A stretch of DNA of 64,000 nucleotides from contig NZ_JABEKT010000001.1 in the NCBI RefSeq assembly GCF_013283195.1, positions 966,795-1,030,794 of the forward strand, read 5' to 3'. The position numbers and the translations under genes are program-made. How positions within the stretch are numbered: position 1 is the stretch's first letter; the number at the start of each line of letters is the position of its first letter. Shown here piece after piece: positions 26,377 to 42,471 of the stretch. The notes under the pieces were generated by a model that saw nothing but the letters and a program-made list of their open reading frames with translations, did no database searches and had not been told where the DNA came from. Source of the stretch: Ensifer adhaerens (GTDB taxonomy: Bacteria; Pseudomonadota; Alphaproteobacteria; Rhizobiales; Rhizobiaceae).

Positions 26377-26832
26377 ATGCTGACGAAGAAGGGAAAGTAC
26401 GGATTGAAGGCTCTTGTCGACCTGGCGCGACTGGAGCCCGGAGAGACGGCTTTCATCACCGAGATCGCCCAGCGCAACAACATCCCGAAGAAGTTTCTGG
26501 ACACCATCCTGCTGGAACTGCGCAACGCCGGCATGCTTCGCTCGAAGAAGGGCCCAGGTGGCGGCTATTCGCTGTCGCGCCCGGCGGCAGAAATCCGCAT
26601 CGGCCATGTCATCCGTACGCTTGACGGCCCGCTCGCGCCGATCCGCTGTGCCAGCCGCACGGCCTACGAGGTCTGCGAGGATTGCAACGATCCGGAGACC
26701 TGTCAGGTCCGCGTCTCGATGACCACCGTGCGCGACGCGGTTGCCTCTATTCTCGATTCCATGACGCTTGAAGAGTTTGCGGCCGACAAGTCGATGCCGC
26801 TCGAAGCGCCGGAAGAAAAGCGCGTCGGCTGA
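26377..26832 (+). CDS. Rrf2 family transcriptional regulator
   Basis: A 151-residue regulator of the family that includes IscR, RirA, NsrR and CymR. The winged helix covers residues 1-80: LTKKGKYGLKALVDLARL, AQRNNIPKKFLDTILLELRN and the wing KKGPGGGYSL. Cysteines occur at CASRTAYEVCEDCNDPETC; their spacing differs from the CX5-7CX5 of IscR, so a cluster is possible but not certain. The start at 26377 is chosen by homology and GGGGAAG upstream. The perfect palindrome CACAATTGTG about 100 bases upstream could be its own operator. The regulated genes are unknown. Confidence 0.88.
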   Translation: MLTKKGKYGLKALVDLARLEPGETAFITEIAQRNNIPKKFLDTILLELRNAGMLRSKKGPGGGYSLSRPAAEIRIGHVIRTLDGPLAPIRCASRTAYEVCEDCNDPETCQVRVSMTTVRDAVASILDSMTLEEFAADKSMPLEAPEEKRVG

Positions 26833-26977
26833 CGAAAACGTCTTCTTTGCGGGATTTCCTGCGCAAACTCGACGGCTTCGGCTTGGTTTGCCAAGAAAAA
26901 GCGCCTATCTGCCTGCAATGGATCTGAGAAACGCCGCTACTAGCCGGCGCAAACGTCTTTGCGGGAATGGAAACACA

Positions 26978-27988
26978 ATGGGTTTGAGACACGCATCAGC
27001 GGATGAGCGGCGCGGTTTGGCTGCATTGGAGTCGGTCGGCAGGACTTTGACGACGGCGATGGCCGGTATCAAGGCGCTCTCCGATCACCTCGGCGCCGAT
27101 ACGGCGTTTGCCCAAAGCATGGTCGAGGCGATCGAACTCATCGGCGAAAGCCAGGGCCGCGTTGTCGTTTCCGGTATCGGCAAAAGCGGGCATATCGGCC
27201 GCAAGATGGCGGCGACCATGGCGTCGACAGGCACATCGGCCTACTTCGTCCACCCGACCGAAGCGAGCCATGGCGATCTCGGCATGGTGACGTCGCAGGA
27301 CGTGCTGATCCTGTTGTCCTGGTCGGGCGAGACGGCGGAACTCGCCAACATGCTCACCTATGCCAAGCGCTTCAAGGTGCCGATCGTTTCGATCTCGTCC
27401 AACCGTGATAGCGTGCTGGCGCGCAACTCCGAAGTGCCGATCGTTCTGCCGAAGGTTCAGGAAGCCTGTCCGCATGGGTTGGCGCCGACGACGTCGGCGA
27501 TGCTGCAGCTTGCGGTCGGCGACGCGCTTGCCATTGCTCTGCTCGAGCGCCGCGGCTTCTCGGCCGAAGACTTCAAGACGTTCCATCCGGGCGGCAAGCT
27601 CGGCGCACAGCTGCGCCTCGTGCGCGAGCTGGCGCATGTGGGCGAACAGGTGCCGCTCTTGAGCGTCGGTCACCCGATGAGCGAAGCGGTCATCGAAATG
27701 TCTTCCAAGGGCTTTGGCGTTGTCGGCATTGTCGACGAGGACGGCAAGCTTGCCGGCGTCATCACCGACGGCGACTTGCGTCGCCACATGTCGGGCGATC
27801 TGCTGGCGCAGACCGTCGAGGCGGTGATGTCGCGCAACCCTCGCGTCATCAGGGGCGATGTTCTGGCAAGCGGTGCGATGGAGTTCATGCAGGATCACAA
27901 GGTGACCGTGCTGTTCCTCGTCGACGAAGAGGGCCTTCCGGTCGGCATCCTGCACATTCACGACCTGCTCCGCGCCGGCGTCGTCTGA
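26978..27988 (+). CDS. kpsF: Arabinose-5-phosphate isomerase (KpsF/KdsD)
   Basis: It converts ribulose-5-phosphate to arabinose-5-phosphate, the first committed step to Kdo and related acids used in LPS core and K-antigens. The 336-residue protein has an N-terminal SIS sugar-isomerase domain (VVVSGIGKSGHIGRKMAATM, LSWSGETAEL, ISSNRDSVLAR, LAPTTSAMLQLAVGDALAIA, FHPGGKLGAQL) and two CBS domains (from about 200; VGHPMSEAVIEMS and VEAVMSRNPRVI). The ATG at 26978 is the homology start. It converges on rkpJ with a 33-base gap, so precursor supply lies beside the capsule genes. Confidence 0.93.
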   Translation: MGLRHASADERRGLAALESVGRTLTTAMAGIKALSDHLGADTAFAQSMVEAIELIGESQGRVVVSGIGKSGHIGRKMAATMASTGTSAYFVHPTEASHGDLGMVTSQDVLILLSWSGETAELANMLTYAKRFKVPIVSISSNRDSVLARNSEVPIVLPKVQEACPHGLAPTTSAMLQLAVGDALAIALLERRGFSAEDFKTFHPGGKLGAQLRLVRELAHVGEQVPLLSVGHPMSEAVIEMSSKGFGVVGIVDEDGKLAGVITDGDLRRHMSGDLLAQTVEAVMSRNPRVIRGDVLASGAMEFMQDHKVTVLFLVDEEGLPVGILHIHDLLRAGVV

Positions 27989-28021: not shown

Positions 28022-29350
28022 CTAGGCGGATAGCGAGGCTGGCCGTTGTTTTTTCAGCGGCTTGCGCCGTGGCGGGGGATCGACGAAGGCGCCCGGCTGA
28101 TTGACCGTGTTCTCGTGCAGGCGCTCGGCGATCGCCTGCGCACCGGCATCGGTTCCTGCTTTCGAATAGAGATTGCCGCGAACCTGGATCGAGGCGGCAA
28201 GCAGCCGGAACATGGCGGTGCTTACCTCTGCGTCAGGCGCAGCAGGCGCTTGCCAGAAGTCGTCCAGCGGCTGCTGGTCCGTCAAGCCGGCAATGTCGAA
28301 CACCGCGGTACCCAGCACCTTGACCGGTCGCCCCTGTTTCAACGCATGCAGACCCGCGGTCGAGTTGACCGTGACCATGCCCGCGCTAGCCTCCGCCAGC
28401 ACATCCAGATTGCCGCCATCGAGATAGAATACGCGCCCGGCAAGGCCAAGCTTGGCCGCCCCATCATCGATGAACTTGCGCCAGGCAATCAGGTCGTTGT
28501 CGAGCGGATGGACCTTGAAGACCAGGCTGGCTTTCTCAGCCGCGTGATCTGCAAACGAGCGCAGAATCTCGCCGATTGCATCTTTCTGACTGTGGAACGG
28601 CGAGTGGGCGCGCAACTGGAAATCGGTTTCGAGCTGCAGCGGATAGACGAAGTAAGGCACGCGTCGCGAAAGCAGTGAACGCACGGTCTCCTCGGCCTCG
28701 GCTGTGCGCCGCTTTCCGGTCAGAAGGCGGCGGATCCAGCCGGCATACTCGGCCAGCGGATGAAAGATCGCATGACGCCGGTAATGCGGAAACAGGAACC
28801 ACAGGAAGACATTGGGGAGATTGTAGAGGAGGTCGTAGCTGGCGTCGGCCAGAAAGGTCTGGCTGTAATGCTTGCGCCAATCCGGCTCCGGCAAATCCTT
28901 TGCGGCATCTACGATCAGGCCAGCGTCGGCCGGAAAGTGGGAGTTCGATGACATGCCGTCGCGCTCCAGTGTCAGCCAGTCCGGCCTGAGATACCCCATC
29001 TCGACGATCGATATCGCAACCCCCATACGCCGCGCGACCGCCGTGGCTGCCTGATGATAGGGCCGCTCCTCACCAAGCAGGATCATGTCGGTGACTTGGT
29101 GGGCGCCGATGAAGCGGTCGAGATAGGCAGGCCAGTCTTCCGGTTTTCCGCGGTAGTTGAACGCCCCTCTGCGCCGCCAGATAATCTGGTCGCCGACATT
29201 GAGGTTGATCCGCACGCACGTGTGGCCGTAACGCTCGAGCCGATCGGCAATCTTGCGGAAGATCGGCGATGACGGGCCTTGAAGGAACAGGAACACCCGC
29301 CGGCTTGGCCGCTGGGTTGAACCGCGAGTGTCGGGCGCAGCGTTTTCCAT
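28022..29350 (-). CDS. rkpJ: Capsular polysaccharide protein RkpJ (KpsS-like)
   Basis: A 442-residue cytoplasmic protein of the capsule-synthesis family that includes KpsS and KpsC, enzymes that put beta-Kdo linker residues on a lipid in group 2 capsules. Recognisable parts are VFLFLQGPSSPIFRKIADRL, HTCVRINLNVGDQIIW, VVNSTAGLHAL-type sequence (here MVTVNSTAGLHALKQGRPVK) and KVHPLDND. RkpJ is required for K-antigen production in Sinorhizobium. It is the last gene of the rkpA-G-H-I-J row, 13 bases after rkpI. Assigning a Kdo-transferase role is family inference. Confidence 0.9.
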   Translation of the reverse strand: MENAAPDTRGSTQRPSRRVFLFLQGPSSPIFRKIADRLERYGHTCVRINLNVGDQIIWRRRGAFNYRGKPEDWPAYLDRFIGAHQVTDMILLGEERPYHQAATAVARRMGVAISIVEMGYLRPDWLTLERDGMSSNSHFPADAGLIVDAAKDLPEPDWRKHYSQTFLADASYDLLYNLPNVFLWFLFPHYRRHAIFHPLAEYAGWIRRLLTGKRRTAEAEETVRSLLSRRVPYFVYPLQLETDFQLRAHSPFHSQKDAIGEILRSFADHAAEKASLVFKVHPLDNDLIAWRKFIDDGAAKLGLAGRVFYLDGGNLDVLAEASAGMVTVNSTAGLHALKQGRPVKVLGTAVFDIAGLTDQQPLDDFWQAPAAPDAEVSTAMFRLLAASIQVRGNLYSKAGTDAGAQAIAERLHENTVNQPGAFVDPPPRRKPLKKQRPASLSA

Positions 29351-29363
29351 GGTCCCGCCGCCG

Positions 29364-30998
29364 CTAACGCAGCGTGTCCTTCTTGAGGTTGGCGTGGTTG
29401 AGCAACGCCTCGATCAGATCCCAGGCGGCCACATCCTGTGGTTCGGCCGGTCGATGATGCGCCGATTTTGCTTTGGCGAGCGGCACGATGAAATAGTCTG
29501 TGCGCGGATCGGGGAAGGGGTCGGCGAAAGACTTCAAGAGCGGCGCATGATCGCCATAGAAGACGAACCAGACGGGACGGTCGAGCTTGTCGAGACGATC
29601 TGTCAACTGCTTCAATGCCGCGTCGGATTGCTCCAGGATCGCCAGGTAGATTTCCACCGGATTGGTGAGGTCGCCAACGCGGCCCGGCTCCCACGGGCCG
29701 TGGTTTGCCATCGAGGCGACGAAAACGAAACCGCTCGTGTCTTCCGGCAACTTCTCACAGGCATCGATGACCTTGGTCGCGAGCTTCTCGTCGGAGACAT
29801 AGGGTCCATCACGGGCGGGCACATGGTCGAACCCGTCGAGCATCGTCAACTCGGCAAAGCCGAGTTGCGGCATCGCCTTGTGGCGCAGGAAGAAGGTGCG
29901 GTCGTAAGGATGTATGAAATGGGTGTGCCAGCCGGCACGCTTCATTTTTCCCGGCCACACGACGTCGGAATAGTGCGATGCCCGCAGGTAGGGGTAGCTC
30001 GCATCCACGTGGATGTCGTCGGGCACGAGGCCGCTGATGACGGCAAATTCGGTGCGCAGTGTATAGCCGCCCTCAAAGACGCTGCTGAGGCGGCCCCATT
30101 GGGCGGCCTGTCGCCGCAATCGGTCAAGCGTCGGCATCTTCAGGGTATCGACACCGAAGTGTCGCATGTCGATGAAGGACTCCGATTGCCAGACGACGAT
30201 CAGCGGCGAGCCATCGTCACCGATCAGGTCCTGGACGGCGGCCCGCACGATTTCCGAGAGTTCGGCGACGATCTTCTCGCGCTTGACGCCGAGCCAGATG
30301 ATGAAGCGGAAGATGACCGATCCGAAGGTGCCGAAGCGCACCGTGTTCATCTTGACGTCGAGCACCTTGACGAGCCGTTGCACGAGCGCCGCCGTCGGTC
30401 GGTTCACCGGGCCGTAGAACAGGAGAAGCCACGGTCCGGCAGCGACCGCCACCATGACCATTATCCAGAACGCCTTGCCGCGGTCGGGCAGAACCGTCGG
30501 TTCGAAATACAGGTAAAGCCCGGAAACGCCGAAGACATAGAGGAATGCGACCGTCCAGAAGACGATGTTCAGCGAGCTGGCATAGAAGATCGTCTTGTAT
30601 TTGAAGACATCGACGACAAGCGCGATGTCGGAGAAGATCAGCGGCTCTCGGATGAACTTGAACTTGGCCCGCGAAATCCCGGTGAAGATGATGAAGAAGC
30701 TCATCGTGCCTGCGGCGGCATAGAGCGGCCGCCAGGACCCTGCAAAGAAGCCGGCAAACACCAGTGCGATGACGGGCAAGCGGGCGAGGACGTCGATGAC
30801 GTCCTGTTTGCGCCCGAAGGGGGAAGGGTTCGCCCGGCGCTCGCGCTTCGGCAGTGCGAAGCGATCGGTGAAGAAGATCACCGCGCAGGACAAGATGAAA
30901 CAACAGATCGTCAGCGTTATCGGATAGTCGTGCAATTGAACGGGGAGTAACGCCAAGCGGAAACCTTCATGCTTTCTTGCACGCCGACACCGCCTCAT
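29364..30998 (-). CDS. rkpI: RkpI, membrane sulfatase/LTA-synthase-like protein
   Basis: A 544-residue protein with about five N-terminal membrane helices (residues ~25-200) and a C-terminal alkaline-phosphatase-superfamily domain. The metal-binding start is VVWQSESFIDM, the likely nucleophile Thr lies in GGYTLRTEFAVISG (compare the T-x-x-x-E-F pattern of LtaS), HGPW follows, and GDHAPLL closes the metal site. Relatives transfer phosphoglycerol or phosphoethanolamine to lipids or sugars outside the membrane. A TTG at 30956 with GAAGG upstream may be the true start, since no ribosome site precedes 30998. It lies 55 bases after rkpH. Confidence 0.9.
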   Translation of the reverse strand: MRRCRRARKHEGFRLALLPVQLHDYPITLTICCFILSCAVIFFTDRFALPKRERRANPSPFGRKQDVIDVLARLPVIALVFAGFFAGSWRPLYAAAGTMSFFIIFTGISRAKFKFIREPLIFSDIALVVDVFKYKTIFYASSLNIVFWTVAFLYVFGVSGLYLYFEPTVLPDRGKAFWIMVMVAVAAGPWLLLFYGPVNRPTAALVQRLVKVLDVKMNTVRFGTFGSVIFRFIIWLGVKREKIVAELSEIVRAAVQDLIGDDGSPLIVVWQSESFIDMRHFGVDTLKMPTLDRLRRQAAQWGRLSSVFEGGYTLRTEFAVISGLVPDDIHVDASYPYLRASHYSDVVWPGKMKRAGWHTHFIHPYDRTFFLRHKAMPQLGFAELTMLDGFDHVPARDGPYVSDEKLATKVIDACEKLPEDTSGFVFVASMANHGPWEPGRVGDLTNPVEIYLAILEQSDAALKQLTDRLDKLDRPVWFVFYGDHAPLLKSFADPFPDPRTDYFIVPLAKAKSAHHRPAEPQDVAAWDLIEALLNHANLKKDTLR

Positions 30999-31053: not shown

Positions 31054-31893
31054 TCACCGACCGCGCTTTGATACTCCACCGCTACGGCGGGCGATCGCTC
31101 GGTCGAACCACCAGTTGAGAACCGGTCTGACCGCCGGGCCGAACCGGCCAAGGAGAAAAAGTGTGAGGCCAAAATAGATCTCGAACCGCCCGCGCTCGAT
31201 GCCGTCGACGATCTTGCCGGCAACCGCTTCTGCCGGCCACGGGCTGACCGTACCCATGACCGCGGTCGCCTCGGCGGGGCGAAAGGCAAGTTCGCGCTGA
31301 AACTGCGGCGTCTCAGTGTCGGGTGGAAAGCAGACGGAGACGTTTACGCCGTGCCCGCGTGCCTCCGAACGAAGCGCCTGCGCAAATCCGTGAACGGCGA
31401 ACTTCGACGCACAGTAGGCGGAATAGCCGTAAATGCCGAGAAGGCCGGCGCCGGAAGAGATCATCATGATTTTTCCACGCCCGCGTTGCGTCATTCCGGC
31501 GTAGACCGCGCGCACCGCATGGACGGTGCCGGAAAAATTCGTGTCCATTTGCCGCTGGAACGCGGTGCTGCCAAGCTCTTCGAACCGGCCGGGCTCGACG
31601 ACGCCGGCTGAGGTCACCAGGATGTCGCAGGGTCCGAACGCGGCTTCGCAGCGATGGATGGCAGCGGTGATTTCGTCCTCCCTCGCAACGTCGGCCGTCT
31701 CGATTCGGATGTCCCCGACTGTCGATGCCTTCGCGGCGAGTTCATCCTGTGCCTGTTTCAGGATCTCGGCGGAGCGTGCGATCAGCGAGAGGCGCGTGCC
31801 GCGACTGGCATAGATCGATGCGATAGCCAGCCCTATGCCGCTCGAGCCGCCGGTGATGATCACATGGGTCATGTCGGGTTCCGCCTGCGGCAT
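31054..31893 (-). CDS. rkpH: RkpH, short-chain dehydrogenase like 3-ketosphinganine reductase
   Basis: A 279-residue SDR. The NAD(P) motif is ITGGSSGIGLAIA, an NxG-type segment lies in LVTSAGVVEP, and the catalytic Ser and Tyr-x3-Lys are in MMISSGAGLLGIYGYSAYC and YCASKFAVHGFAQALRSE. The latter run closely follows the pattern of eukaryotic 3-ketodihydrosphingosine reductase. A C-terminal hydrophobic segment (IYFGLTLFLLGRFGPAV) suggests membrane association, also as in that family. In the cluster it follows the alpha-oxoamine synthase gene rkpG by 28 bases, so it probably reduces the ketone that RkpG makes. That reaction is inference. Confidence 0.9.
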   Translation of the reverse strand: MPQAEPDMTHVIITGGSSGIGLAIASIYASRGTRLSLIARSAEILKQAQDELAAKASTVGDIRIETADVAREDEITAAIHRCEAAFGPCDILVTSAGVVEPGRFEELGSTAFQRQMDTNFSGTVHAVRAVYAGMTQRGRGKIMMISSGAGLLGIYGYSAYCASKFAVHGFAQALRSEARGHGVNVSVCFPPDTETPQFQRELAFRPAEATAVMGTVSPWPAEAVAGKIVDGIERGRFEIYFGLTLFLLGRFGPAVRPVLNWWFDRAIARRSGGVSKRGR

Positions 31894-31921
31894 CCGGCCC
31901 TTGGGGGGCGCTTGCGCTTCG

Positions 31922-33337
31922 TCAACGCGCCGAGAGCGCCTTCATCATCTGATCGATATCGATTCCGCCGAGACCGAAGTTGCGTTCGGTCAGATCCTTC
32001 AGGCGCTCGGCCGTCAGCGTCACCGTCTTGCGGATCTGCTCTTCCGTATGGTCGCTGGTGATGAAGAAGCGCAGCCGCGCCAGCCCTTCGGGAACCGCCG
32101 GGTGGATGATCGGCAGCGCATTGACGCCGGCCGCCAGCAGATCGTTGGAGAGTTGGACGGCGCGCAGAGAATCGCCGACCAGAACCGGCACCACGGAAAA
32201 GCCGCTGCTGAGACCGGTGTCCAGACCTGCCTCCTTGGCAAGCTTCAGGAAGAGCGCACCATTGCGCCTGAGGGCGGCTGTGCGCGACGGCTCGCGCGCA
32301 AGCACGTCGAGGCTTGCGGCGGCCGATGCGGCCAGAACCGGAGCAAGGCCGACGCTGTAGACGAAGCCTCCAGCCGACGCCTTGAGCACGGCGACGAGCG
32401 CTTCGCTGCCCGCGATGTAACCGCCGCAGCTTGACGTCGTCTTCGACAGCGTACCCATCCAGATGTCGATCTCATTCGGATCGACGCCGAAGTGTTCCGC
32501 AAGGCCGCGGCCATGTTTGCCGACGACCCCCAGGGAATGGGCCTCGTCGACCATCAGCCAGAAGCCGTACTCGGCCTTGAGTTTCAGGAGGGCCGGCAGA
32601 TCGGCAACGTCGCCGTCCATCGAGTAGATACCCTCGACGATGACAAGGATACGGCGATAATCGCCCGAGACCGTGCGCAGCACATGCTCAAGGTCGCTGG
32701 CGTCGTTGTGCTTGAACAGGCGGCGCGTGGCCCCGGAAAGCTTGATGCCGGCCAACGCGCTGTTGTGGATGAACTCGTCGTGGACGACGAGGTCCTTCGG
32801 TCCCATCAGGCAGCTGATGGCCGCGACATTGGTCAGATAGCCGCTGACGAAGCAGACGGCGGCATCGACGCCATAGAAGCGCGCGATCTTTTCTTCCAGC
32901 TCGACATGAACAGGCCGCTCGCCGGCGACAAGCCGGCTGGCCGAGGCGGAGATGCCGAAGGTCTCGACGGTTTCCTTTGCCCTTGCCAGCACCTCCGGGT
33001 GCCGGTTGAGGCCAAGATAGTCATAGGACGCAAAGTTGATCAGCTTGCGGCCGTCGATAACGGTCGTGGCGCCGGCCGCGGTCTGATGCGCCCGGTAGAA
33101 CGGGTTGGCGATCCCAAGCTGTTCGCTGGCAAACTTCTGGGTCTGAACCTGTTTGTATTCCGGCAGATCCTCGAAACGGGCCTGCTGCCGGCGGGCCGGC
33201 GGCGGCATCTCTCGCTCCGACCGCGCCATGCGGTTGCGCTCGGAGGATTGATGCGTGTTTCTCATCCGGTCCAGCAGGTTCTCCTTGAGGCTGCTGGTCA
33301 TCTTGGATGAGCCGGGACCGTTTCCGTTCGTGCTCAT
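31922..33337 (-). CDS. rkpG: RkpG, alpha-oxoamine synthase family acyltransferase
   Basis: A 471-residue PLP enzyme of the family of 8-amino-7-oxononanoate synthase, glycine C-acetyltransferase and serine palmitoyltransferase, which join an acyl thioester to an amino acid with loss of CO2. After a ~75-residue basic N-terminal extension come NFASYDYLGLNRHPEV, FVSGYLTNVAAI, the cofactor-stacking and Asp motifs (VHDEFIHNSALAG, MVDEAHSLGVVG), and the Schiff-base Lys299 in GTLSKTTSSCGGYIAG. Its ATG overlaps the rkpA stop (ATGA). No free acyl carrier gene is present, so the acyl donor is probably the carrier domain of RkpA. Confidence 0.93.
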   Translation of the reverse strand: MSTNGNGPGSSKMTSSLKENLLDRMRNTHQSSERNRMARSEREMPPPARRQQARFEDLPEYKQVQTQKFASEQLGIANPFYRAHQTAAGATTVIDGRKLINFASYDYLGLNRHPEVLARAKETVETFGISASASRLVAGERPVHVELEEKIARFYGVDAAVCFVSGYLTNVAAISCLMGPKDLVVHDEFIHNSALAGIKLSGATRRLFKHNDASDLEHVLRTVSGDYRRILVIVEGIYSMDGDVADLPALLKLKAEYGFWLMVDEAHSLGVVGKHGRGLAEHFGVDPNEIDIWMGTLSKTTSSCGGYIAGSEALVAVLKASAGGFVYSVGLAPVLAASAAASLDVLAREPSRTAALRRNGALFLKLAKEAGLDTGLSSGFSVVPVLVGDSLRAVQLSNDLLAAGVNALPIIHPAVPEGLARLRFFITSDHTEEQIRKTVTLTAERLKDLTERNFGLGGIDIDQMMKALSAR

Positions 33338-36300
33338 TGGCTCTGTGCTTTTTCCTTTGCCGTGCCGACATGCCGTTGCGCCAACTCGGTGACCAACTTG
33401 TCATCCGCACCGTCGCTGTCGTCGCCCTGGTCGCGCTTGCTGACCTTCTCATAGAGCTTACGGGCGACGTCGCCAACCGTCGTGTTGTCTGCGACGCCAC
33501 TCAGAGGCATGTCGAAGCCGGTGTTCTGCTGGAAGCTCATGCCGAGTTCGACGGCCATCAGGCTGTCGAGGCCGATTTCCTTCAAGACCTTGCTGCGCGT
33601 GACCGTATCCTTCGAGACCCGCAGGATCGCGGCAATTTCGCCTGCGACCAGATCGAAGAGAATATCCTCGGCTTCCTGAGCAGACTTGCCCTCGATCATC
33701 GCGACGAGGTCCATCTTGGTGCCTTCGCCGCCGGACGAATGCTGATCGGCACTGCGCAGGATAACCTCGAAGAGCGCGTTGCGGGCGACCGGCAGGTTGC
33801 GGGCGGCCGACCAGTCGAGCTCTGAAATCATAACGACGGCGGCGTCGACCGTGCCGGGGTCGCCGGCAAGGTGGCTTTCCACCATGTCGAGCGCCGTCTG
33901 CGCCTTCAGCGCCGTCTTGCCGATGCGCTTGGCCAAGAGGTCGTTGACGTCGGTGTTCTGTACCAGATAGCCCTTGTCGGCGATCGCGCCGAACCCGACC
34001 GCAAGACCGGCAAGCCCTTCGGCGCGCCGGGCACGGGCAAGACCTTCAAGGTAGCCGTTGGCAGCAACGTAGTTCGCCTGGCCGGGATTGCCGACCAGCG
34101 TCGTTGCCGACGAGAACAGGATGAAGTTATCGAGCGCGTCGCCACGGGTCAGTTGATCGAGAACAGCGGCACCCTTTGCCTTGGTGTCGATGACCGGCCG
34201 GTTGCGCTCGCGATTGAGATTGCTGATGAGCGCGTCGTCCAGCACCATCGCTGCGTGAACGATGGAGCGCAGCGGCGCAATGTTTCGCAATTCTGCAAGC
34301 AGGCCGTTGGCTGCCGTTGCATCCGTGATGTCGCAGGCATGAACCGTCGCCGAGATGCCGGCCTTGGCCCAAAGCTCGATCATCGCCGTCGTTTCCGCGT
34401 CCGCAAGGCCGCGCCGCGAGCAAAGGGCGATATTCTTCGCACCCTTGTCGGCAAGCCAGTTGGCAGCGGCCAGGCCGAAGCCGCCGATGCCGCCGACGAC
34501 GAGGTGCATGCCTTCAGGGTCGATCGTGACGCCACCGCGTGGCTGGGTTGCGACCTGGTGTTTCCCGGCCACTGGCGGCAGCACGACGATCTTGCCGATA
34601 TGGCCTGCGTTCTGCATCAGGCGGAACGCATTGCCGATCTCGTCGAAATCGAAGGCGCGGTACGGCAGCGGTGTCAGCTTGCCGTCTTCAAACAACGCGC
34701 CGATCTCGGTGAAGATGCGCTTGGTGAGCGCCGGCGCGTTGACCAGCAATTGGTCGGCGTCGATGCCGAAGTAGCTGACATTGCGACGGAACGGCCGAAG
34801 GCCGATCTTGCTGTCTGCGTAGTAGTCGCGCTTGCCGAGTTCGAGGAAACGGCCGAACGGTTTGACGAGCGCCAGGCTCTGCTCCATCGCTTCGGCGAAG
34901 AGCGAGTTCAGGACGAGGTCGACGCCTTCGCCGTTTGTCACGGCGCGCACGTCGTTGACGAAACCGAGCGAGCGCGAATCGAACACATGGTCGGCGCCGA
35001 GCATCGAAAGGAAGCGGCGTTTCTCGCGCGTGCCGGCCGTGGCGATGACTTTCGCGCCCTTCAGCTTGGCAACCTGCAGTGCTGCAAGGCCGACGCCGCC
35101 GGCGGCACCGTGGATAAGGATGGTTTCGCCGGCCTGGATGCGGCCGAGTTCCACCATGGCATAGTAGGCGGTGAGGAACGCGACCGGCACGGTGGCAGCC
35201 GCGACCGGGCTGACCGATTGCGGCAACCGGGCGACACCGGCGCGCGAAACGACCGCGTGGGTGGAGAAGGCCGCCGAGGCGATCGCCATGACGGCGTCGC
35301 CGACCGAAAGATCGTCCACGCCCTTACCGACGGCAACGACGTGACCGGACAGTTCCATGCCGATCGTCGCACCGGCAAAGCCGTCTTCAAGCGCTTCTTC
35401 GGGCAGAAGACCCATGGCCCACATCACGTCGCGGAAGTTGAGGCCGGTGGCAGCCACCTTGACGACAACGTCGCCTGGGCCCGCGGTCGGCACACTGCTT
35501 TCTTCCCAAACGATGCTGCCGACCTGAGAGGCGACCCGTTGACGGATTGTGGCTGCGTCGAAGGACGCCGTCGAGCCATGGGCGCTGTCGGTCGGACCGG
35601 AAACTGCGCGGATTTCCGAGAGCGATCCGTTCGGCCCTTCCAGCAGCCATTCACGATTGGTGCCGGAAACGGCAAGCAATGGAAGCGCCGCAGCAGTCTT
35701 CTGCTCGTCAGACGTCGCGCTGTCTGCGGCAAGATCCAGAGCGTGGACGTCGAGGAACTCGTACTCGTTCTGCAAAACGCGGGCGAAAGCCCAAAGGCCG
35801 GCATTGGTGCCGGAGCTTACCGCCGTCGTGCCCGACACACGGGCGGCAACCGGCGCCCCGTCAGGTGCGACAAGAACGAGCCTGGGGCGTGCGTCGCCGT
35901 TTGGATCGGTGTCGCCGACGTGCTGGCGCAGCACTTCTGCCAAGGCGCTGAGCGCCAGAACCTGAGCCTGCAAAGAGGCGGAGTCGTCAGTCCGGCTTTT
36001 CGGCGCAGGCGACGATAGGAAGACGGCCCGAACGGGTCGATCGCCGAAGGTCTCGAGCGCATCGCGAAGCAACGCCGTATCCGTAGACGTGTCACCCGTC
36101 AGATTGACCGGGACGGCGCCTGCGGACGGCTGCGTTTTCTGGCGCAGGCCGACCTGCAGCAGCAGGTAGGTCCCAACTGCTGCGACGGCAGCATCGGTAC
36201 CGGTCTCGGCAGGCACCGGCGTTTCCACGCCGCGTGCTTCGAGAACGATGATGTTGCCACTGGCGCATTCGCGATCCGTAACGTCGATCTCGCGAAGGTC

Positions 36301-39300
36301 GAGATCAGCCAGACATTTCTGCCAATGCGGAACGGCTGCGAGATTGCCGATCGGGAACTCCGCGGCCTGGCTGCGGGCAAACCAGCCGTCCGACAGTCCG
36401 AGCGCAAAATCGTTGAAGAGCGATGGCGCGCCGACTGCGGCGACAAGGCCACCGGTGCGGCGGAGCGTCGAGCGAAGCGCCGCGCGAACGTCGATATCGT
36501 CTTCAATCAGACCGTAGAGGCGGTCGGATGCGCTGATGGCGAGATCGAACGGCGCCTGGGTCGCAAGCTCACCCTTCTTGAGAATGCGGACATGGGCATC
36601 GTTTTCAAATGCGAGTTCCAGGCCACGTTGCGCGTTGTCACGCGGTTCGACCACGCTGAGGCTCGCGCCGTGTTTGGCGGCAAGCGCCGACAGGCGACGG
36701 GTGAAGCCGGCGGAAACGCTGCCGAGTTCGACAATGCGCAGGCGCATTCCGGCTGGCTGAGTGCGCAGCGCCGCTTCCACGGTGTCGAGAACGAGCGCCA
36801 TGCGCTGGCGGCTTGCCTCGGAGTGCACGGCCTGATGGTCTAGCGTCGCATCGCTGATGAAGCCGGAATTGGCGACGGTTTCGGTATCGCCGCCGGCTGG
36901 AGCCGCCAGCAGGACATCAAGACGCGCCAGAGCTTCGGCGTAGGCGTTGTTGATCAGAACCGCCTCGACGGCGCGATCCGGGCGCTCGCCATAGAGTTCG
37001 CGCAGGATTTCGGAAACGCTCGGGAGGCTGAATTCCTGCGCGACGGTCCAGACGCCGTCCTTGTGTTCGCAGAGACCGGCATCCTCAAGTACGTAGAGGC
37101 AACTCGCCAGGAAACACTGGAAGGCGAATTCGCCGGGCAGACTGTCGCTGCGCACGACCGATCGTCCCCTGCCGAGCTTCAGCGCAATTTCCTGGCAGGC
37201 GCGATAGATGGCTGCGTTGAACAGCAACGTCGTGTTGTCGATACCGGTATCGGCCGCGGTCGCGACGCTGAGGGTCACCGGCGCGTGGGCGCCAGCATCA
37301 ACCGTCGGCAGGAGCGCTTCGGAAAGCACAGTCTCGTAGTGGAACGACAGGGCGTCTAGCGTCTTGTGCTTGCGCAGATAGGTACGCCGGAAGCGGCAAT
37401 CCTCGAAATAGGCAACTGGTCCGCCGGACTTGTCGAAGAAGTGGAACTTGGCCTTGATCGAATTGGCGCTGACACGCTCGATCTCGATCGTGGCGCGCGC
37501 AATCGGCTTGCCGGCATTGACGACGCGCACGGAACCGAACCGCACCGGAATATAGGGTGCACCGCTCTTGTCGCCGGTAAAGCGGTCAAAAAGCGCAACA
37601 AGCCCGTGGAACGTGGCGTCCACCGAGATTGGGTTGAGGGCATAGGTGATCAGTGGATGACCGGACTTGTCCGGGCTCTTCAGCTCGACGTCGACGAACC
37701 GATCGTCATAGGCGACGGCCTTGGCGAGCAACTGGAAACGCGGACCGTAGTCGAGGCCGAACTGCCGTGCGGTATCATATGCCTTGGCCGGAGCGACGGT
37801 TGCCGTCTTCTGCATGCCGGCAAAGGACGGCAGCGGGCGTTCTTCACTCGGCAACGGCTTGCGGGACCGGGCAACCGCGTGAACGGCCCAGTCGTCTTCC
37901 GACAGCCGTTCGCGCGAGCGGATTTCGATGTCGCCGGTTTCCGGCGACAGGACGGTCGACAGCTCCATGATGCGGCTGTCGCTGAGCTCCAGCGGCCGGA
38001 CGATCTCCAGATTGGTGATCTCGACCTCGTCGGTACCATAAAACTGCTGTGCGGCTGCGACGGCGATTTCGATGAAACCGCTGCCCGGCAGGATCGCCTT
38101 GCCGTCGACGACATGCTCGGCCAGATCCGGAAACAGCGGCGCATCGATGTGGTTCTTCCAGCTGCCGCTGTTCGGATCGCTGCGCCAGCCGGTCAGGCGG
38201 TAGGGTTTTGCGGTGCGGCCGAAGAGGTCCGTGGCGTCGGTGGTGGCAGCCGGTCGCAGTTCGACCGGCTCGAACGGCAGGCTCGGCAGCGAGATCGCCG
38301 CATTGCGTTTGCCGAAGACGCGTGTCGTATCGACGATGGCGCCGTGGGCGACGGCTCGCGCCATGGCGGCCGAAATCGGATCCTGACCGGTCTCTCCGAC
38401 GTCTCTGAGCAGTGTCGGCACGACCATGCCCGGAGAGGCCGCTTGCTTGATTGTTTCCTTGACGTAGGAAGAGAGGATCGGGCGCGGAGAAATCTCGACA
38501 AAGAGCCGGCAACCGAGCTCGATCGCCGCCTCTGCCGCTGCCTGGAAACGAACCGGCTCGCGGACATTCTTCCACCAGTAGTCCGGATCGAGGTGCGTCC
38601 CGTCAAGGGCTGCACCCGTAACCGTCGACAAGTAGGTGACTTCCGCCCGGCGGGGCGCGATGTCGGGAATGTCCGACAGGAACGCGTCCTTTGCCCGGTC
38701 GATGATCGGGTGGTGGAAGGGGTAGTTGATGTCGAGAATCTGGACCGGGATCTTGGCCTTGCGCGCCGCGTCGCGGAAAGCGGAAATCTGATGCGCCGGG
38801 CCCGAGATCGTCACTGAATTATGGGCGTTGACGGCAGCGACGCAAAGCTCGTCGAGGCCGCGGGCCTCGGCAAAGGCGCGTGCGGCATCTTCACCCAGCA
38901 TGACGGCGGCCATGGTGCCATGGCCGGCGAGCAGATCCTGGTGCAGCGACCGCTTGGCGACGATCGAGACGGCATCGACCATCGACAGCGCGCCTGCCGC
39001 ATAGGCAGCGGCGATTTCGCCGACCGAATGACCGAAGACGGCGACCGGCTTGATGCCCATGGCGACAAGCGAATCGGAAAGGGCGGCCTGAACCGCAAAG
39101 AGCAGCGGTTGGGCGATCTTCGTATCGGACAGCTTCTTGTCCAGGTTGGGATCCGTCAGAAGCTCGGTCAGCGAGATGTCGGAATGGAACTTGAAGAGCG
39201 CACTGACCGAGGTGAAACACTGGCGGAAGTGAAGGTTTTCACGGAACGCTTCGACGCCCATGCCGGCCCATTGCGAGCCGTTGCCCGAAAAGACGAAGGC

Positions 39301-40878
39301 GACCTTGGCATCTCTGGTGACAGCTTCGCCCACTTCGCCGATATCGGAGCCCGGTTTTTCCACATGGCTGGCGATCGCGCGTACGATATCTTCGGGATGG
39401 TCGCTGCGGGCTGCGAACCGATAGCGCATATGCGTGCGGTTGGCGCCGGAAGCCGCGACCATCGAGCGGATCTCACCCTTGGACGCGTTGGCAAAGCGCG
39501 TCTTGTAGTCCTTCAGCAGGGCTTCAAGGCTCGATGCGGTGTGGGCGCTTGCGAGGAAGACATGCCCTGACGACGGCGGATTGTTGATCTTGTCTTCGGA
39601 AATCGGCTCCGGGTCGCTGATGACCACGTGGGCGTTGGCGCCGCCGAAACCGAACGAGTTGATGCCGGCAAGCCGGGCACGCTTGCCACGCAGCAATTCG
39701 ATCGGGCTCGCCGTTACGCGCACGTTCAGGCCGTCGAAATCGATATGTTCGTTCGGCGTGTCGAAGTGCAGCGATGCGGGCAGGTAGTTGTTCTCGAGCG
39801 CCAGGATCGCCTTCATCATGCCGAAGAGGCCGGAAGCCGGCTCGGTGTGGCCGATGTTCGATTTGATCGATCCGATCGGGACTGGTGCCCGACGGTTGGC
39901 GCCGATGACCGTGCCGATCGACCAGACTTCTGCGGGATCGCCGACCTTGGTGCCGGTGCCGTGACCCTCGACGAAGGCGACCTGGTTGGCATCAATGCCG
40001 TTGCCTTCGTAGATCGCCCTGAGCAGGTTTGCCTGGGCTTCGCGCGAAGGCAGGGAGATGCCGTTGGTCCGGCCGGCCGAATTGACGCCCGACGCAACGA
40101 TCCGGGCGTAGCTCCGGTCTTTTTCCTTGCGGGCGCGGTCGGAGCGGCGCAACACGAACACGACGCCGCCCTCGGCGCGCACGTAGCCTGCGCCATCGTT
40201 GTCATAGGCGCGGCAGAGCCCTTCGGGCGAAAGCATGCGCGCCTGCGCAAAACCGACGAAGGGCAGGGGGTGGGCGAGAATATTGACGCCGCCGACGATC
40301 GCCGTATCGATTTCGCCGGCGTTGAGTGCCCGCATCGCCTGATCGAGCGCGACGAGCGAGGAGGAACAGGCCGTATCGACGGTCATGCTCGGGCCGCTTA
40401 AGCCGAAAATGTGCGAAATGCGATTGGAGACGATCGACAGAGTGTTGCCGGTCATGAAGTACGGCCCGGCGGCAGCCGGATCCTCGACCGTCAGGTTGGC
40501 ATGGTCGAGGCTCGATGCGCCGATATAAACGCCGACATTCTCGCCATGCAGCGAGGTCGTCGAGATGTTGGCGTCTTCGAGCGCGCGCCAGGCAAGCTGC
40601 AGAAGCACGCGCTGCTGCGGATCCATATACATGGCTTCGCGCTGCGACATGCCGAAGACGGCCGGGTCGAAATCATAGAGTTGATCGAGTACGCCGGCAG
40701 CAAAGGAATAGGTCTTGCCCTGCGTGCCCATGACCGGGTGCCAGAAACGCGCAACGTCCCAGCGATCGGAGGGGATGCTGGTAACAGTGCACTTGCCCTG
40801 ACGAAGAAGTTTGAACAACGCCAAAGGCGATTCTGCTCCAGGGGCGAGGCATGCACGCCCAATAATCTCAACAGCCAT
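33334..40878 (-). CDS. rkpA: RkpA, multidomain polyketide/fatty-acid synthase
   Basis: A 2514-residue type I synthase, known in Sinorhizobium as RkpA and needed for K-antigen. Domains in order: ketosynthase (~1-430, Cys171 in DTACSSSLVALDQ, then the HGTGTKVGDP and SNIGHTEPASG His motifs), acyltransferase (~525-850, Ser618 in GHSVGE), dehydratase (~890-1180, His922 in HVVDGKAILPGSG), a long middle region with a methyltransferase-like but degenerate fold (~1360-1560, VELGSVSAGF), enoylreductase (~1800-2090, HGAAGGVGLAALQVAKLKG), ketoreductase (~2120-2320, GGIGGFGLAAANWL) and one carrier domain (Ser2439 in EIGLDSLMAVELG). All reducing domains look intact, so a saturated chain is expected. No thioesterase is seen; the C-terminus continues directly into rkpG by an ATGA overlap. 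Confidence 0.95.
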   Translation of the reverse strand: MAVEIIGRACLAPGAESPLALFKLLRQGKCTVTSIPSDRWDVARFWHPVMGTQGKTYSFAAGVLDQLYDFDPAVFGMSQREAMYMDPQQRVLLQLAWRALEDANISTTSLHGENVGVYIGASSLDHANLTVEDPAAAGPYFMTGNTLSIVSNRISHIFGLSGPSMTVDTACSSSLVALDQAMRALNAGEIDTAIVGGVNILAHPLPFVGFAQARMLSPEGLCRAYDNDGAGYVRAEGGVVFVLRRSDRARKEKDRSYARIVASGVNSAGRTNGISLPSREAQANLLRAIYEGNGIDANQVAFVEGHGTGTKVGDPAEVWSIGTVIGANRRAPVPIGSIKSNIGHTEPASGLFGMMKAILALENNYLPASLHFDTPNEHIDFDGLNVRVTASPIELLRGKRARLAGINSFGFGGANAHVVISDPEPISEDKINNPPSSGHVFLASAHTASSLEALLKDYKTRFANASKGEIRSMVAASGANRTHMRYRFAARSDHPEDIVRAIASHVEKPGSDIGEVGEAVTRDAKVAFVFSGNGSQWAGMGVEAFRENLHFRQCFTSVSALFKFHSDISLTELLTDPNLDKKLSDTKIAQPLLFAVQAALSDSLVAMGIKPVAVFGHSVGEIAAAYAAGALSMVDAVSIVAKRSLHQDLLAGHGTMAAVMLGEDAARAFAEARGLDELCVAAVNAHNSVTISGPAHQISAFRDAARKAKIPVQILDINYPFHHPIIDRAKDAFLSDIPDIAPRRAEVTYLSTVTGAALDGTHLDPDYWWKNVREPVRFQAAAEAAIELGCRLFVEISPRPILSSYVKETIKQAASPGMVVPTLLRDVGETGQDPISAAMARAVAHGAIVDTTRVFGKRNAAISLPSLPFEPVELRPAATTDATDLFGRTAKPYRLTGWRSDPNSGSWKNHIDAPLFPDLAEHVVDGKAILPGSGFIEIAVAAAQQFYGTDEVEITNLEIVRPLELSDSRIMELSTVLSPETGDIEIRSRERLSEDDWAVHAVARSRKPLPSEERPLPSFAGMQKTATVAPAKAYDTARQFGLDYGPRFQLLAKAVAYDDRFVDVELKSPDKSGHPLITYALNPISVDATFHGLVALFDRFTGDKSGAPYIPVRFGSVRVVNAGKPIARATIEIERVSANSIKAKFHFFDKSGGPVAYFEDCRFRRTYLRKHKTLDALSFHYETVLSEALLPTVDAGAHAPVTLSVATAADTGIDNTTLLFNAAIYRACQEIALKLGRGRSVVRSDSLPGEFAFQCFLASCLYVLEDAGLCEHKDGVWTVAQEFSLPSVSEILRELYGERPDRAVEAVLINNAYAEALARLDVLLAAPAGGDTETVANSGFISDATLDHQAVHSEASRQRMALVLDTVEAALRTQPAGMRLRIVELGSVSAGFTRRLSALAAKHGASLSVVEPRDNAQRGLELAFENDAHVRILKKGELATQAPFDLAISASDRLYGLIEDDIDVRAALRSTLRRTGGLVAAVGAPSLFNDFALGLSDGWFARSQAAEFPIGNLAAVPHWQKCLADLDLREIDVTDRECASGNIIVLEARGVETPVPAETGTDAAVAAVGTYLLLQVGLRQKTQPSAGAVPVNLTGDTSTDTALLRDALETFGDRPVRAVFLSSPAPKSRTDDSASLQAQVLALSALAEVLRQHVGDTDPNGDARPRLVLVAPDGAPVAARVSGTTAVSSGTNAGLWAFARVLQNEYEFLDVHALDLAADSATSDEQKTAAALPLLAVSGTNREWLLEGPNGSLSEIRAVSGPTDSAHGSTASFDAATIRQRVASQVGSIVWEESSVPTAGPGDVVVKVAATGLNFRDVMWAMGLLPEEALEDGFAGATIGMELSGHVVAVGKGVDDLSVGDAVMAIASAAFSTHAVVSRAGVARLPQSVSPVAAATVPVAFLTAYYAMVELGRIQAGETILIHGAAGGVGLAALQVAKLKGAKVIATAGTREKRRFLSMLGADHVFDSRSLGFVNDVRAVTNGEGVDLVLNSLFAEAMEQSLALVKPFGRFLELGKRDYYADSKIGLRPFRRNVSYFGIDADQLLVNAPALTKRIFTEIGALFEDGKLTPLPYRAFDFDEIGNAFRLMQNAGHIGKIVVLPPVAGKHQVATQPRGGVTIDPEGMHLVVGGIGGFGLAAANWLADKGAKNIALCSRRGLADAETTAMIELWAKAGISATVHACDITDATAANGLLAELRNIAPLRSIVHAAMVLDDALISNLNRERNRPVIDTKAKGAAVLDQLTRGDALDNFILFSSATTLVGNPGQANYVAANGYLEGLARARRAEGLAGLAVGFGAIADKGYLVQNTDVNDLLAKRIGKTALKAQTALDMVESHLAGDPGTVDAAVVMISELDWSAARNLPVARNALFEVILRSADQHSSGGEGTKMDLVAMIEGKSAQEAEDILFDLVAGEIAAILRVSKDTVTRSKVLKEIGLDSLMAVELGMSFQQNTGFDMPLSGVADNTTVGDVARKLYEKVSKRDQGDDSDGADDKLVTELAQRHVGTAKEKAQSQ

Positions 40879-41283: not shown

Positions 41284-42471
41284 TTGAAACGTGTAGCTGC
41301 CCTTCTGCTTTCTACCGCACTTGCGGGATGTCAGGCTGTTCCGGGCGAAGGGCCACTGGCCGGAGCCATTGTTGCGGATGCTGGTCAATCCGGCGCCGAA
41401 ATCGGTCGAAAGAATGCCACTGTCTTTGATATCGTCGATGTAACCGGTCAGTCGGCGCGCCTTGTTTCCGACTATGTGTCGTCGACGCTCAACCGCCGGT
41501 TCGGCGTTGGCGGCGGCGTCGGCCGCGTCGTCATCGGTGTCGGTGACGCCCTGAAAGTGTCGATCTTCGAGGCCGGCAGCGACGGTCTCTTCTCGACGCA
41601 GGATTCCAAGCAGACAAGCATCGATCTGGTCGTTCAGCCTGACGGCAAGGCAGCCATTCCCTATGTCGGGCCGGTCCAGTTTGCCGGCTTGACCCTGGAG
41701 CAGGCGCGCCAGGCAATCCTGGAAGCGCTGAAGCAGAAGGCGGTGGAGCCTGACGTCATCGTCACGAGCATGAGCACCGCGTCGCGCAACGTCACCGTTT
41801 CGGGTGCCGTCGGCAAGTCCTCGGTCGTGCCGCTCAGCCTCGTCGACGAAACGATCAACGAGGTCATCGCCAAGGCAGGCGGCCCGGTCGCTCAGCCCTA
41901 CGAGACCTATGTGACGCTGGTGCGCGGCAAGAAGACCGGTACGGTCCTGCTGAAGTCGATCATCGAGAACCCGTCGGAAAACATCCATGTGAAGCCGGGC
42001 GACCAGATCTTCGTCGCGCGCGATCCGCGCCGCTTCACGATCCTCGGCGCCGTCAAGGCGAACCAGCGTGTCGAATTCGGCGCCAACGATCTCAATCTGC
42101 TGGAAGCGATGGGGCTTGCCGGCGGTGGTTCCGACTACGCGCTCGACATGAAGGGCTACTTCATCTTCCGTTACGAAGAGCCGGATGTGGTCATGAGCCT
42201 TCTCGGCCAGCAGCGCTTCAACGAGATGTTGCGCAAGGGCATGAAGACCGACAGCCAGGGACGTTACCCGATCGTCTACCGCTTCGACATGAGCAAGCCG
42301 GACAGCCTGATCGTCGGCCAGACATTCCCGATCAAGAATCGCGACGTGATCTACGCATCGCGCCATCCGTCGGTCGATTTCTCGAAGTTCCTGAACTTTG
42401 TTGCTCAGCCGGTCGGCATTGCCAATTCCGGCTTCTCGATCGCAGACAACATCAACAGCATCAACAACTGA
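41284..42471 (+). CDS. Polysaccharide export outer-membrane lipoprotein (Wza/KpsD-like)
   Basis: A 395-residue lipoprotein that would form the outer-membrane channel for capsule or exopolysaccharide export. The lipobox LAGC puts the lipidated Cys at residue 16. The polysaccharide-export domain is near 85-180 (IGVGDALKVSIFEAG, then LVVQPDGKAAIPYVGPVQFA, GLTLEQARQAILEAL), followed by beta-grasp SLBB-type repeats (ITVSG-like VTVSGAVGKSS and FTILGAVKANQRVEF). It starts with TTG at 41284; GGAG lies about 13 bases upstream. It is divergent from rkpA, so K-antigen export is the likely use. A candidate name such as rkpU was considered but not adopted, since RkpU is reported in the rkpA transcription direction. 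Confidence 0.88.
   Translation: MKRVAALLLSTALAGCQAVPGEGPLAGAIVADAGQSGAEIGRKNATVFDIVDVTGQSARLVSDYVSSTLNRRFGVGGGVGRVVIGVGDALKVSIFEAGSDGLFSTQDSKQTSIDLVVQPDGKAAIPYVGPVQFAGLTLEQARQAILEALKQKAVEPDVIVTSMSTASRNVTVSGAVGKSSVVPLSLVDETINEVIAKAGGPVAQPYETYVTLVRGKKTGTVLLKSIIENPSENIHVKPGDQIFVARDPRRFTILGAVKANQRVEFGANDLNLLEAMGLAGGGSDYALDMKGYFIFRYEEPDVVMSLLGQQRFNEMLRKGMKTDSQGRYPIVYRFDMSKPDSLIVGQTFPIKNRDVIYASRHPSVDFSKFLNFVAQPVGIANSGFSIADNINSINN

Follow-up and report, generated by a model that had tools for sequence, protein, structure and literature searches.

The rkp-1 genes of Sinorhizobium meliloti 1021 are reported to produce and modify 'a specific lipid carrier', for which the text cited gives no structure, and to be needed for secretion of poly-3-deoxy-D-manno-oct-2-ulosonic acid (poly-Kdo) (PMC4881576). 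The rkp genes analyzed here lie in a window of Ensifer adhaerens DNA (the whole stretch analyzed, 64,000 nucleotides). The closest described chemistry is that of Pseudomonas fluorescens MYb115, in which the synthase SgaA and the alpha-oxoamine synthase (AOS) SgaB make C24, C26 and C28 sphinganines (PMC12134224, 2025). Purified SgaB is described as joining L-serine to acyl-CoA and hardly using alanine or glycine. In the same report the short-chain dehydrogenase/reductase (SDR) SgaC is proposed as the reductase, FUM13 is named as a reductase homologue, and species heavier by 154 Da are judged most likely to be phosphoglycerol sphingolipids (PMC12134224). KpsS is described as adding the first Kdo to (lyso-)phosphatidylglycerol at the cytoplasm-membrane interface (PMC7694667). 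The serine palmitoyltransferases (SPTs) of three proteobacteria are reported to prefer acyl-AcpR, and RkpF, an acyl carrier protein (ACP) of the S. meliloti rkp operon, to be pantetheinylated in E. coli as seen by radiolabelling (PMC9386255); rkpABCDEF is described as later reinterpreted as a single large rkpA (PMC7902896). Sphingolipids of P. gingivalis are linked to the presentation of surface polysaccharides (PMC5126122).

On the whole it is probable that rkpA, rkpG, rkpH, rkpI and rkpJ form a lipid line for the capsule, with a phosphoglycerol-sphinganine, a look-alike of lyso-phosphatidylglycerol, as the anchor. Coordinates are positions in the window, and the open reading frames (ORFs) of these genes were called on the minus strand.

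rkpA, 33334-40878, minus strand: fully reducing type I synthase of 2514 residues (KS-AT-DH-ER-KR-ACP), presumably iterative, without a thioesterase; from the ORF, Pfam and active-site motifs.
ACP domain of RkpA, 33460-33648, minus strand: residues 2411-2473, with Ser2439 in GLDSL; from Pfam PP-binding and the motif.
rkpG, 31922-33337, minus strand: pyridoxal phosphate-dependent AOS of 471 residues, Lys299; from Pfam Aminotran_1_2, the tree, residues and solved SPT relatives among the PDB matches.
rkpH, 31054-31893, minus strand: SDR of 279 residues, proposed 3-ketosphinganine reductase; from Pfam and a profile search.
rkpI, 29364-30998, minus strand: membrane protein of the lipoteichoic acid (LTA) synthase kind, proposed phosphoglycerol transferase on sphinganine; from Pfam Sulfatase, GacH matches and invariant residues.
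rkpJ, 28022-29350, minus strand: KpsS-like protein, proposed to add the first beta-Kdo to the lipid; from Pfam Capsule_synth.

On its own carrier domain, RkpA would build a malonyl-derived chain by repeated elongation and full reduction. RkpG, in place of a thioesterase, would join the carrier-bound acyl chain to an amino acid, most likely L-serine, giving 3-ketosphinganine, the ketone of which would be reduced by RkpH to yield sphinganine. RkpI may then transfer phosphoglycerol from phosphatidylglycerol to the 1-hydroxyl; the resulting phosphoglycerol-sphinganine would have one chain and share its head group with lyso-phosphatidylglycerol. RkpJ is predicted to place the first beta-Kdo on this lipid, and the capsule sugar would be built and exported on that anchor. 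The order A-G-H-I-J is also a plausible one for the reactions, which would lead from the acyl carrier through ketosphinganine, sphinganine and phosphoglycerol-sphinganine to the lipid primed with Kdo. What was observed here is the order of the genes, their domains and conserved residues, the clade to which RkpG belongs, the fusions found in relatives and the conservation of neighborhoods. For homologues in Pseudomonas, serine-using AOS activity, sphinganines of C24-C28 and probable phosphoglycerol-sphinganines have been shown elsewhere. For Sinorhizobium itself we infer each step of the line, which amino acid is used, what RkpI does and that the lipid serves as anchor. A sphingoid product is very likely, and a role of the lipid as capsule acceptor or carrier is slightly favored. 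Under this model the 'specific lipid carrier' attributed to rkp-1 would receive an identity. The initial annotation, which had drawn a sphingoid line from RkpA, RkpG and RkpH, ended one gene early, in that RkpI and the KpsS-like RkpJ appear to belong to the same line.

Pfam placed KS at residues 3-373 of RkpA, AT at 528-829, DH at 904-1165, ER at 1800-2099, KR at 2123-2300 and a single PP-binding domain at 2411-2473. The active-site motifs (DTACSSS, EGHGTGT, KSNIGH, GHSVGE, HVVDGKAILP, GAAGGVG, GGIGGFG, YVAAN and GLDSL) were intact, and the YPFH motif in AT is taken by us to be of the malonyl kind. No thioesterase family was found in RkpA by Pfam at E 0.001. A hidden thioesterase, which would have counted against the initial annotation, was also looked for with a GxSxG-type pattern; the only match was the AT site, and this candidate was rejected. 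RkpA is as that annotation described it, fully reducing, with a single carrier (Ser2439) and no thioesterase, and shares with the SgaAB type the layout of a single-module reducing synthase with one carrier. No methyltransferase was matched by Pfam in the DH-ER linker, where a VELGSVSAG stretch looked degenerate by eye.

The stop codon of rkpA overlaps the start codon of rkpG in ATGA and the SDR gene follows, so that the coupling of the AOS gene (Lys299) first proposed was borne out by the ORFs. In a phylum sample of 398 genomes, that of the window included, all 25 places listed outside that genome at E <=8.5e-87 were fetched together with 6 weaker ones; an RkpA-like synthase stood beside the AOS in 20 of the 25 stronger places vs 0 of the 6 weaker. 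Named species were also scanned, and of 586 confirmed AOS loci the 80 best were analyzed (hereafter the best 80). A synthase lay upstream of the AOS in 78, the other two being L117 and L130; in L169 the frames were broken and 2.8 kb separated synthase and AOS. A 4-base start-stop overlap was present in 28 of the best 80 (22 ATGA, 4 GTGA, 2 TTGA), and in 8 loci from Burkholderiaceae (L132, L141, L144, L149, L161, L163, L164 and L166) an LpxC-like gene stood between synthase and AOS. At L086:12907-13830 an LpxC-like deacetylase was matched (Pfam LpxC, 1.6e-64); one idea for the substrate of such a deacetylase is an N-acyl group on the sphingoid base.

Four natural one-chain ACP-AOS fusions were found, in three architectures. 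A single KS-AT-DH-ER-KR-ACP-AOS chain occurs in L051 and on a Planktothrix agardhii plasmid; a KS-AT-ACP-AOS chain lacking reducing domains lies near an MMPL transporter on a plasmid of the actinomycete Streptomyces anthocyanicus (L088:8386-13209); and L059:2201-8008 encodes an AMP-ACP-KS-DH-ACP-AOS chain, possibly a fatty-acid-primed version. In each the AOS sits after the carrier domain, the place where a thioesterase would be expected. Release of the synthase-bound chain by the AOS is strongly supported by the adjacency, these fusions, the clade shared with Pseudomonas AOS relatives and the published SPT activity of a homologue of that kind (PMC12134224), and the release logic of the initial annotation is upheld with it.

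RkpG scored below the curated cut-off of every NCBIfam model considered (bits/cut-off): the canonical SPT models NF047599 (280.7/500), NF047600 (303.5/640) and NF047603 (217.9/670), BioF (366.6/426.45, the highest), KBL (304.3/460) and ALAS (245.4/338.55). Assignment as BioF, KBL, ALAS or canonical SPT was rejected on these scores. Its own genome carries a separate KBL and two ALAS; of the three canonical SPT models, two have no match there above cut-off. A fifth AOS-like match of this genome (L005, G000:C12:424121-425212) contains an internal TGA and is perhaps a decayed gene.

For the AOS tree, 62 rows were picked from 135. RkpG and 40 other synthase-linked rows formed one branch (support 97/88), separate from canonical SPT (6 rows, 100/100), KBL, ALAS and BioF; one synthase-linked row, L059, fell outside it. 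Pseudomonas relatives fall in the RkpG clade and are 48-49% identical to RkpG, vs 28-33% for six canonical SPTs; 9 of 249 genomes of genus g114 (taken as Pseudomonas) carry a relative at E <=1e-82. It is highly improbable that the RkpA chain is an ordinary fatty acyl left unused by RkpG, with RkpG acting on a small acyl-CoA and standing next to the synthase by operon history only. BioF is the top NCBIfam score of RkpG, although below cut-off, and would fit such a view; the upstream synthase in 78 of the best 80, the four fusions in three architectures and the separation of the RkpG branch from BioF and KBL speak against it.

The closest outsiders to the RkpG branch were five AOS without a synthase (L053-L056 and L058). 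An SDR was present in the fetched stretch of 4 of these 5 loci, that of L056 with the RkpH-type motif, and this branch is possibly another alphaproteobacterial sphingoid route.

His191, Asp264, His267, Lys299 and Arg423 of RkpG were invariant in 135 of 135 aligned AOS sequences. Ser134 is as in SPT (6/6) and BioF, unlike ALAS (Thr, 2/2). Position 106 of RkpG is Asp; in 115 labelled relatives it is Asn in 95, Asp in 15 and Ser in 5, and among reference enzymes Asn in 6/6 canonical SPTs and Asp in 2/2 ALAS and 2/2 BioF. Asp106 and Asn106 are mixed inside the synthase-linked clade, unrelated to the presence of an RkpI-type gene. If RkpG took alanine or glycine, the product would be a 1-deoxy long-chain amino alcohol, which lacks the 1-hydroxyl that a head group would need. 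Asp106, shared with BioF and ALAS, and the use of alanine by fumonisin-type AOS lend this some weight. It is improbable, as RkpI would be left without a natural acceptor, Ser134 agrees with SPT and BioF and not with ALAS, and the clade holds Pseudomonas relatives, SgaB being described as using serine almost exclusively (PMC12134224). Serine is the likely amino acid of RkpG.

Reduction by RkpH is supported more weakly by its sequence. The initial annotation had given RkpH the pattern of a 3-ketosphinganine reductase; we take GLLGIYGYSAYCASK to be mostly the general SDR catalytic pattern, and the motif was dropped as evidence because it is mostly generic. With RkpH alone, the ketosphinganine reductase TSC10 ranked 21st of 344 solved sequences in the PDB. 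A profile of six SDRs ranked TSC10 first, narrowly (3.9e-44 vs 1.9e-43 for the next); the six had been picked because they share PPDTxTP with RkpH, and the motif was used solely for that choice. PPDTxTP had looked specific for ketosphinganine reductase. Among SDR frames near the AOS loci, however, it was present in only 6 of the 49 with higher scores and in none of the 5 with lower scores, and it is absent from solved TSC10 as aligned.

With RkpI alone, the phosphoglycerol transferase GacH was the sole PDB match (5e-6, two distinct sequences). A profile of ten RkpI module members gave ten matches: GacH (6e-29, two sequences), LTA primase (6e-20), four LTA synthase sequences (1e-8 to 6e-6), one uncharacterized protein and two sulfatases (0.001 and 0.009), with no phosphoethanolamine transferase named among the ten. 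Crude hydropathy of RkpI gave four hydrophobic stretches within residues 26-194, followed by a soluble part. E273, T313, R315, H363, R372, H433 and D483-H484 were invariant in 10/10 and 21/21 aligned members, and the metal Glu (E273), Thr (T313) and Asp-His (D483-H484) are taken, as in LtaS, to be the catalytic residues. Matches and candidate catalytic residues together point to kinship with phosphoglycerol transferases and LTA synthases, and addition of phosphoglycerol by RkpI is fairly probable.

RkpJ matched Pfam Capsule_synth with 344.7 bits and the NCBIfam KpsS model with 213.4, under its cut-off of 600. Capsule genes were counted in loci as KpsS, C, D, M, T, E or Kdo synthesis. Among the best 80, an RkpI-type gene was near in 39, an SDR in 33 and both in 31; a capsule gene was near in 37 and a capsule or RkpI-type gene in 61, or in 46 of the 54 loci of at least 20,900 bases. 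Counts were lower in the phylum sample, where of 20 loci with a synthase 6 had an RkpI-type gene, 8 a capsule gene and 6 an SDR. In g114 an RkpI-type gene was in the fetched stretch of 6 of 9 module-bearing genomes. The 11 control AOS loci without a synthase held no RkpI-type and no capsule gene; 20 arbitrary regions of module-bearing genomes held no RkpI-type gene and no KpsS, C, D, M or E, and contained 3 KpsT-like ABC proteins, 2 SDRs and 1 synthase-like match.

KpsS/KpsC-family genes were also counted across hand-picked genomes, 25 with the module and 35 without, at a best E of <=1e-38. Of the module-bearing genomes, the phylum sample contributed 17 of its 19 (all but G322 and G157) and g114 8 of its 9 (all but G437). 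Such genes were present in 21 of 25 genomes with the module vs 4 of 35 without (Fisher p 1e-8, uncorrected for kinship) and, within g114, in 8 of 8 vs 0 of 15 (Fisher p 2e-6, likewise uncorrected). At a looser E of <=1e-10 the counts were 22/25 vs 8/35.

The order of the genes was SDR-RkpI-polyketide synthase (PKS)-AOS in Halomonas and kin, RkpI-PKS-LpxC-AOS in Burkholderiaceae, and PKS-AOS beside KpsC-GNAT-RkpI-SDR-KpsS-KpsC in Pseudomonas. Since gene order varies by lineage, repeated association beyond mere inheritance is likely. On a plasmid of Pseudomonas sp. TMW 2.1634, PKS-AOS is followed on the opposite strand by PhyH, KpsC-like, GNAT, LTA synthase, SDR and KpsS-like genes and onward by a second KpsC-like gene, a phosphotransferase, KpsF, KdsB and KdsA; the KpsC and KpsS names were assigned to Capsule_synth proteins, two of three of which were checked. 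A Pseudomonas module encloses a phytanoyl-CoA dioxygenase-like protein (L085:15252-16295) and a GNAT protein (L085:18411-19013), which could hydroxylate and N-acylate the base. The locus tags of MYb115 are given as RS19805 (PKS), RS19800 (AOS) and RS19775 (SDR) (PMC12134224). If tags step by five, four genes would lie between its AOS and SDR, as in the TMW 2.1634 plasmid and L078 (PhyH, KpsC, GNAT, LTA synthase). The counts back the capsule role that the initial annotation had offered with a 'perhaps' (anchor or primer of the K-antigen); for E. adhaerens itself that role is still argued from relatives.

Several observations weigh against a capsule anchor built in this way. Enzymes of the LTA-synthase type act outside the inner membrane. 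With RkpI on the outer face and KpsS at the cytoplasm-membrane interface, the lipid would have to flip, and the probable periplasmic active site of RkpI is the main difficulty of the model. Asp106 makes serine use by RkpG uncertain. RkpH belongs to a different subfamily from the SDRs of the compared beta- and gammaproteobacterial modules, Pseudomonas clusters included (23-29% identity); an SDR was also found in 4 of the 11 control AOS loci without a synthase and 2 of the 20 other regions, and since SDRs are common in controls, their proximity alone says little. KpsS was nearby in only 21 of the best 80, and in 19 the fetched stretch lacked RkpI-type and capsule genes alike, a number of these loci being cut by contig ends. 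The module was present without a KpsS/KpsC match in G012, G169 and G041, and with a weak match only in G324. Burkholderiaceae modules carry an LpxC-like gene, and KpsS is absent from the fetched stretch (8/8 LpxC loci), so that anchor chemistry may differ there. The variety of neighbors (GNAT, PhyH, LpxC-like) suggests further tailoring in other lineages. The amino acid (Asp106), the membrane side of RkpI and this variety are the weakest joints.

The membrane side bears on a different arrangement, in which the RkpA-G-H sphingoid is a free membrane lipid needed for capsule export, RkpJ starts on lyso-phosphatidylglycerol and RkpI acts on a sugar or other acceptor. The polysaccharide could then be the acceptor outside the inner membrane, where enzymes of the LTA-synthase kind act. 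MYb115 is reported to yield detectable free sphinganines along with the probable phosphoglycerol-sphinganines (PMC12134224), and the link of sphingolipids to surface polysaccharides in P. gingivalis (PMC5126122) would fit as well. RkpI- and KpsS-type genes are, however, interleaved with the lipid genes in distant lineages, which one pathway fits better than two. A free lipid of this kind is unlikely, though it carries more weight than the other two alternatives, and a phosphoglycerol-sphinganine anchor is preferred.

Within the genus, RkpG was found in 16 of 16 genomes, and the A-G-H-I-J order was kept in the 15 relatives fetched, with coverage of at least 94% for each protein. Identity across these was 91-100% for RkpG, 88-99% for RkpI, 73-93% for RkpH, 77-88% for RkpJ and 67-96% for the DH-ER linker of RkpA; the AOS, RkpI and most catalytic domains are thus better kept than the linker. 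In one relative (L226, G645) rkpG was 100% identical to the window copy in 1-223 and 263-471 and unmatched between (91% overall), perhaps through two compensating frameshifts or a sequencing error. The rkp-1 genes of S. meliloti Ak57 lie near secD in a record of 3.7 Mb whose title calls it pSymB (L211, CP090106.1), and the replicon name looks swapped with the chromosome. In Ak57 the gene after the capsule protein is annotated KpsF/GutQ. The genome of the window has one more, shorter KpsC-like gene elsewhere. Two neighbors of the line complete the locus.

rkpU, 41284-42471, plus strand: polysaccharide export protein, divergent neighbor of rkpA; from Pfam Poly_export and SLBB.
KpsF-like sugar-phosphate isomerase gene (Kdo supply), 26768-27988, plus strand: neighbor; 203 bits to the annotated KpsF of a Pseudomonas capsule plasmid.

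The synthase-AOS chemistry has been in print since 2025, and the reading of RkpI and RkpJ as part of a capsule-anchor line is apparently new among the open-access matches listed. None of those matches tied rkp or wcb to a sphingolipid capsule anchor, most subscription papers lying outside that literature. By word search, the text of a 2025 review of capsule attachment (PMC12220298) held no rkp, sphing-, Sinorhizobium, polyketide, lyso-PG or wcb, and the main text of PMC12134224 held no rkp, capsul-, rhizob- or Kdo.

This reading brings together three literatures that were found apart, namely those on the K-antigen of rhizobia, on the WcbR-type synthase in capsule clusters and on sphingolipids derived from synthases. 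More tentatively, and with somewhat less than an even chance in our view, capsules of a class widespread among Gram-negative bacteria (the K-antigen of rhizobia, the wcb type and those of Pseudomonas, Bordetella, Halomonas and others) may be built on phosphoglycerol-sphinganine from a dedicated reducing synthase, AOS, reductase and phosphoglycerol transferase, the MYb115 sphingolipids being capsule-anchor precursors or spill-over and not stand-alone secondary metabolites. If so, the lipid anchors of ABC-exported capsules would be of more than one kind, and bacterial sphingolipid production would be commoner than counts of canonical SPT genes suggest. The excerpted text of PMC12134224 names no enzyme for the probable phosphoglycerol sphingolipids of MYb115, and the RkpI type is a candidate. 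Because a structure is now proposed for the rkp-1 lipid carrier, the question is testable in mutants of a model symbiont.

PfSgaA-SgaB-SgaC resembles rkpAGH in its single-module reducing synthase, adjoining AOS and SDR proposed as ketosphinganine reductase. As in the SgaAB type, rkpG is directly downstream of the synthase gene and in the synthase-linked clade, Pseudomonas relatives standing in for MYb115 SgaB; the difference is that sga was published as a secondary-metabolite cluster protecting worms (PMC12134224). The Burkholderia wcb cluster (BPSL2787-BPSL2791) is described as an AOS, an LpxC-like protein, the WcbR synthase, a sulfatase-like membrane protein and an SDR followed by capsule export, the same module adjoining capsule genes (PMC4275268). 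It differs in the extra LpxC-like gene between synthase and AOS. The fumonisin line offers an analogy only, drawn from the scheme of reducing synthase, AOS release and SDR reduction and not from sequence comparison with Fum8. There Fum1 is the synthase and Fum8 the AOS; the line is fungal, the chain is methylated and the amino acid is alanine. Canonical SPT with AcpR is alike in that the AOS takes its chain from a dedicated carrier protein instead of CoA, and unlike in its separate ACP, acyl-ACP synthetase and different AOS branch (PMC9386255). The group 2 capsule of E. coli K5 (KpsS/KpsC; PMC7694667) shares with the locus a KpsS-like protein (RkpJ), a Kdo-supply gene and an export gene; in the rkp system a dedicated lipid would replace lyso-phosphatidylglycerol.

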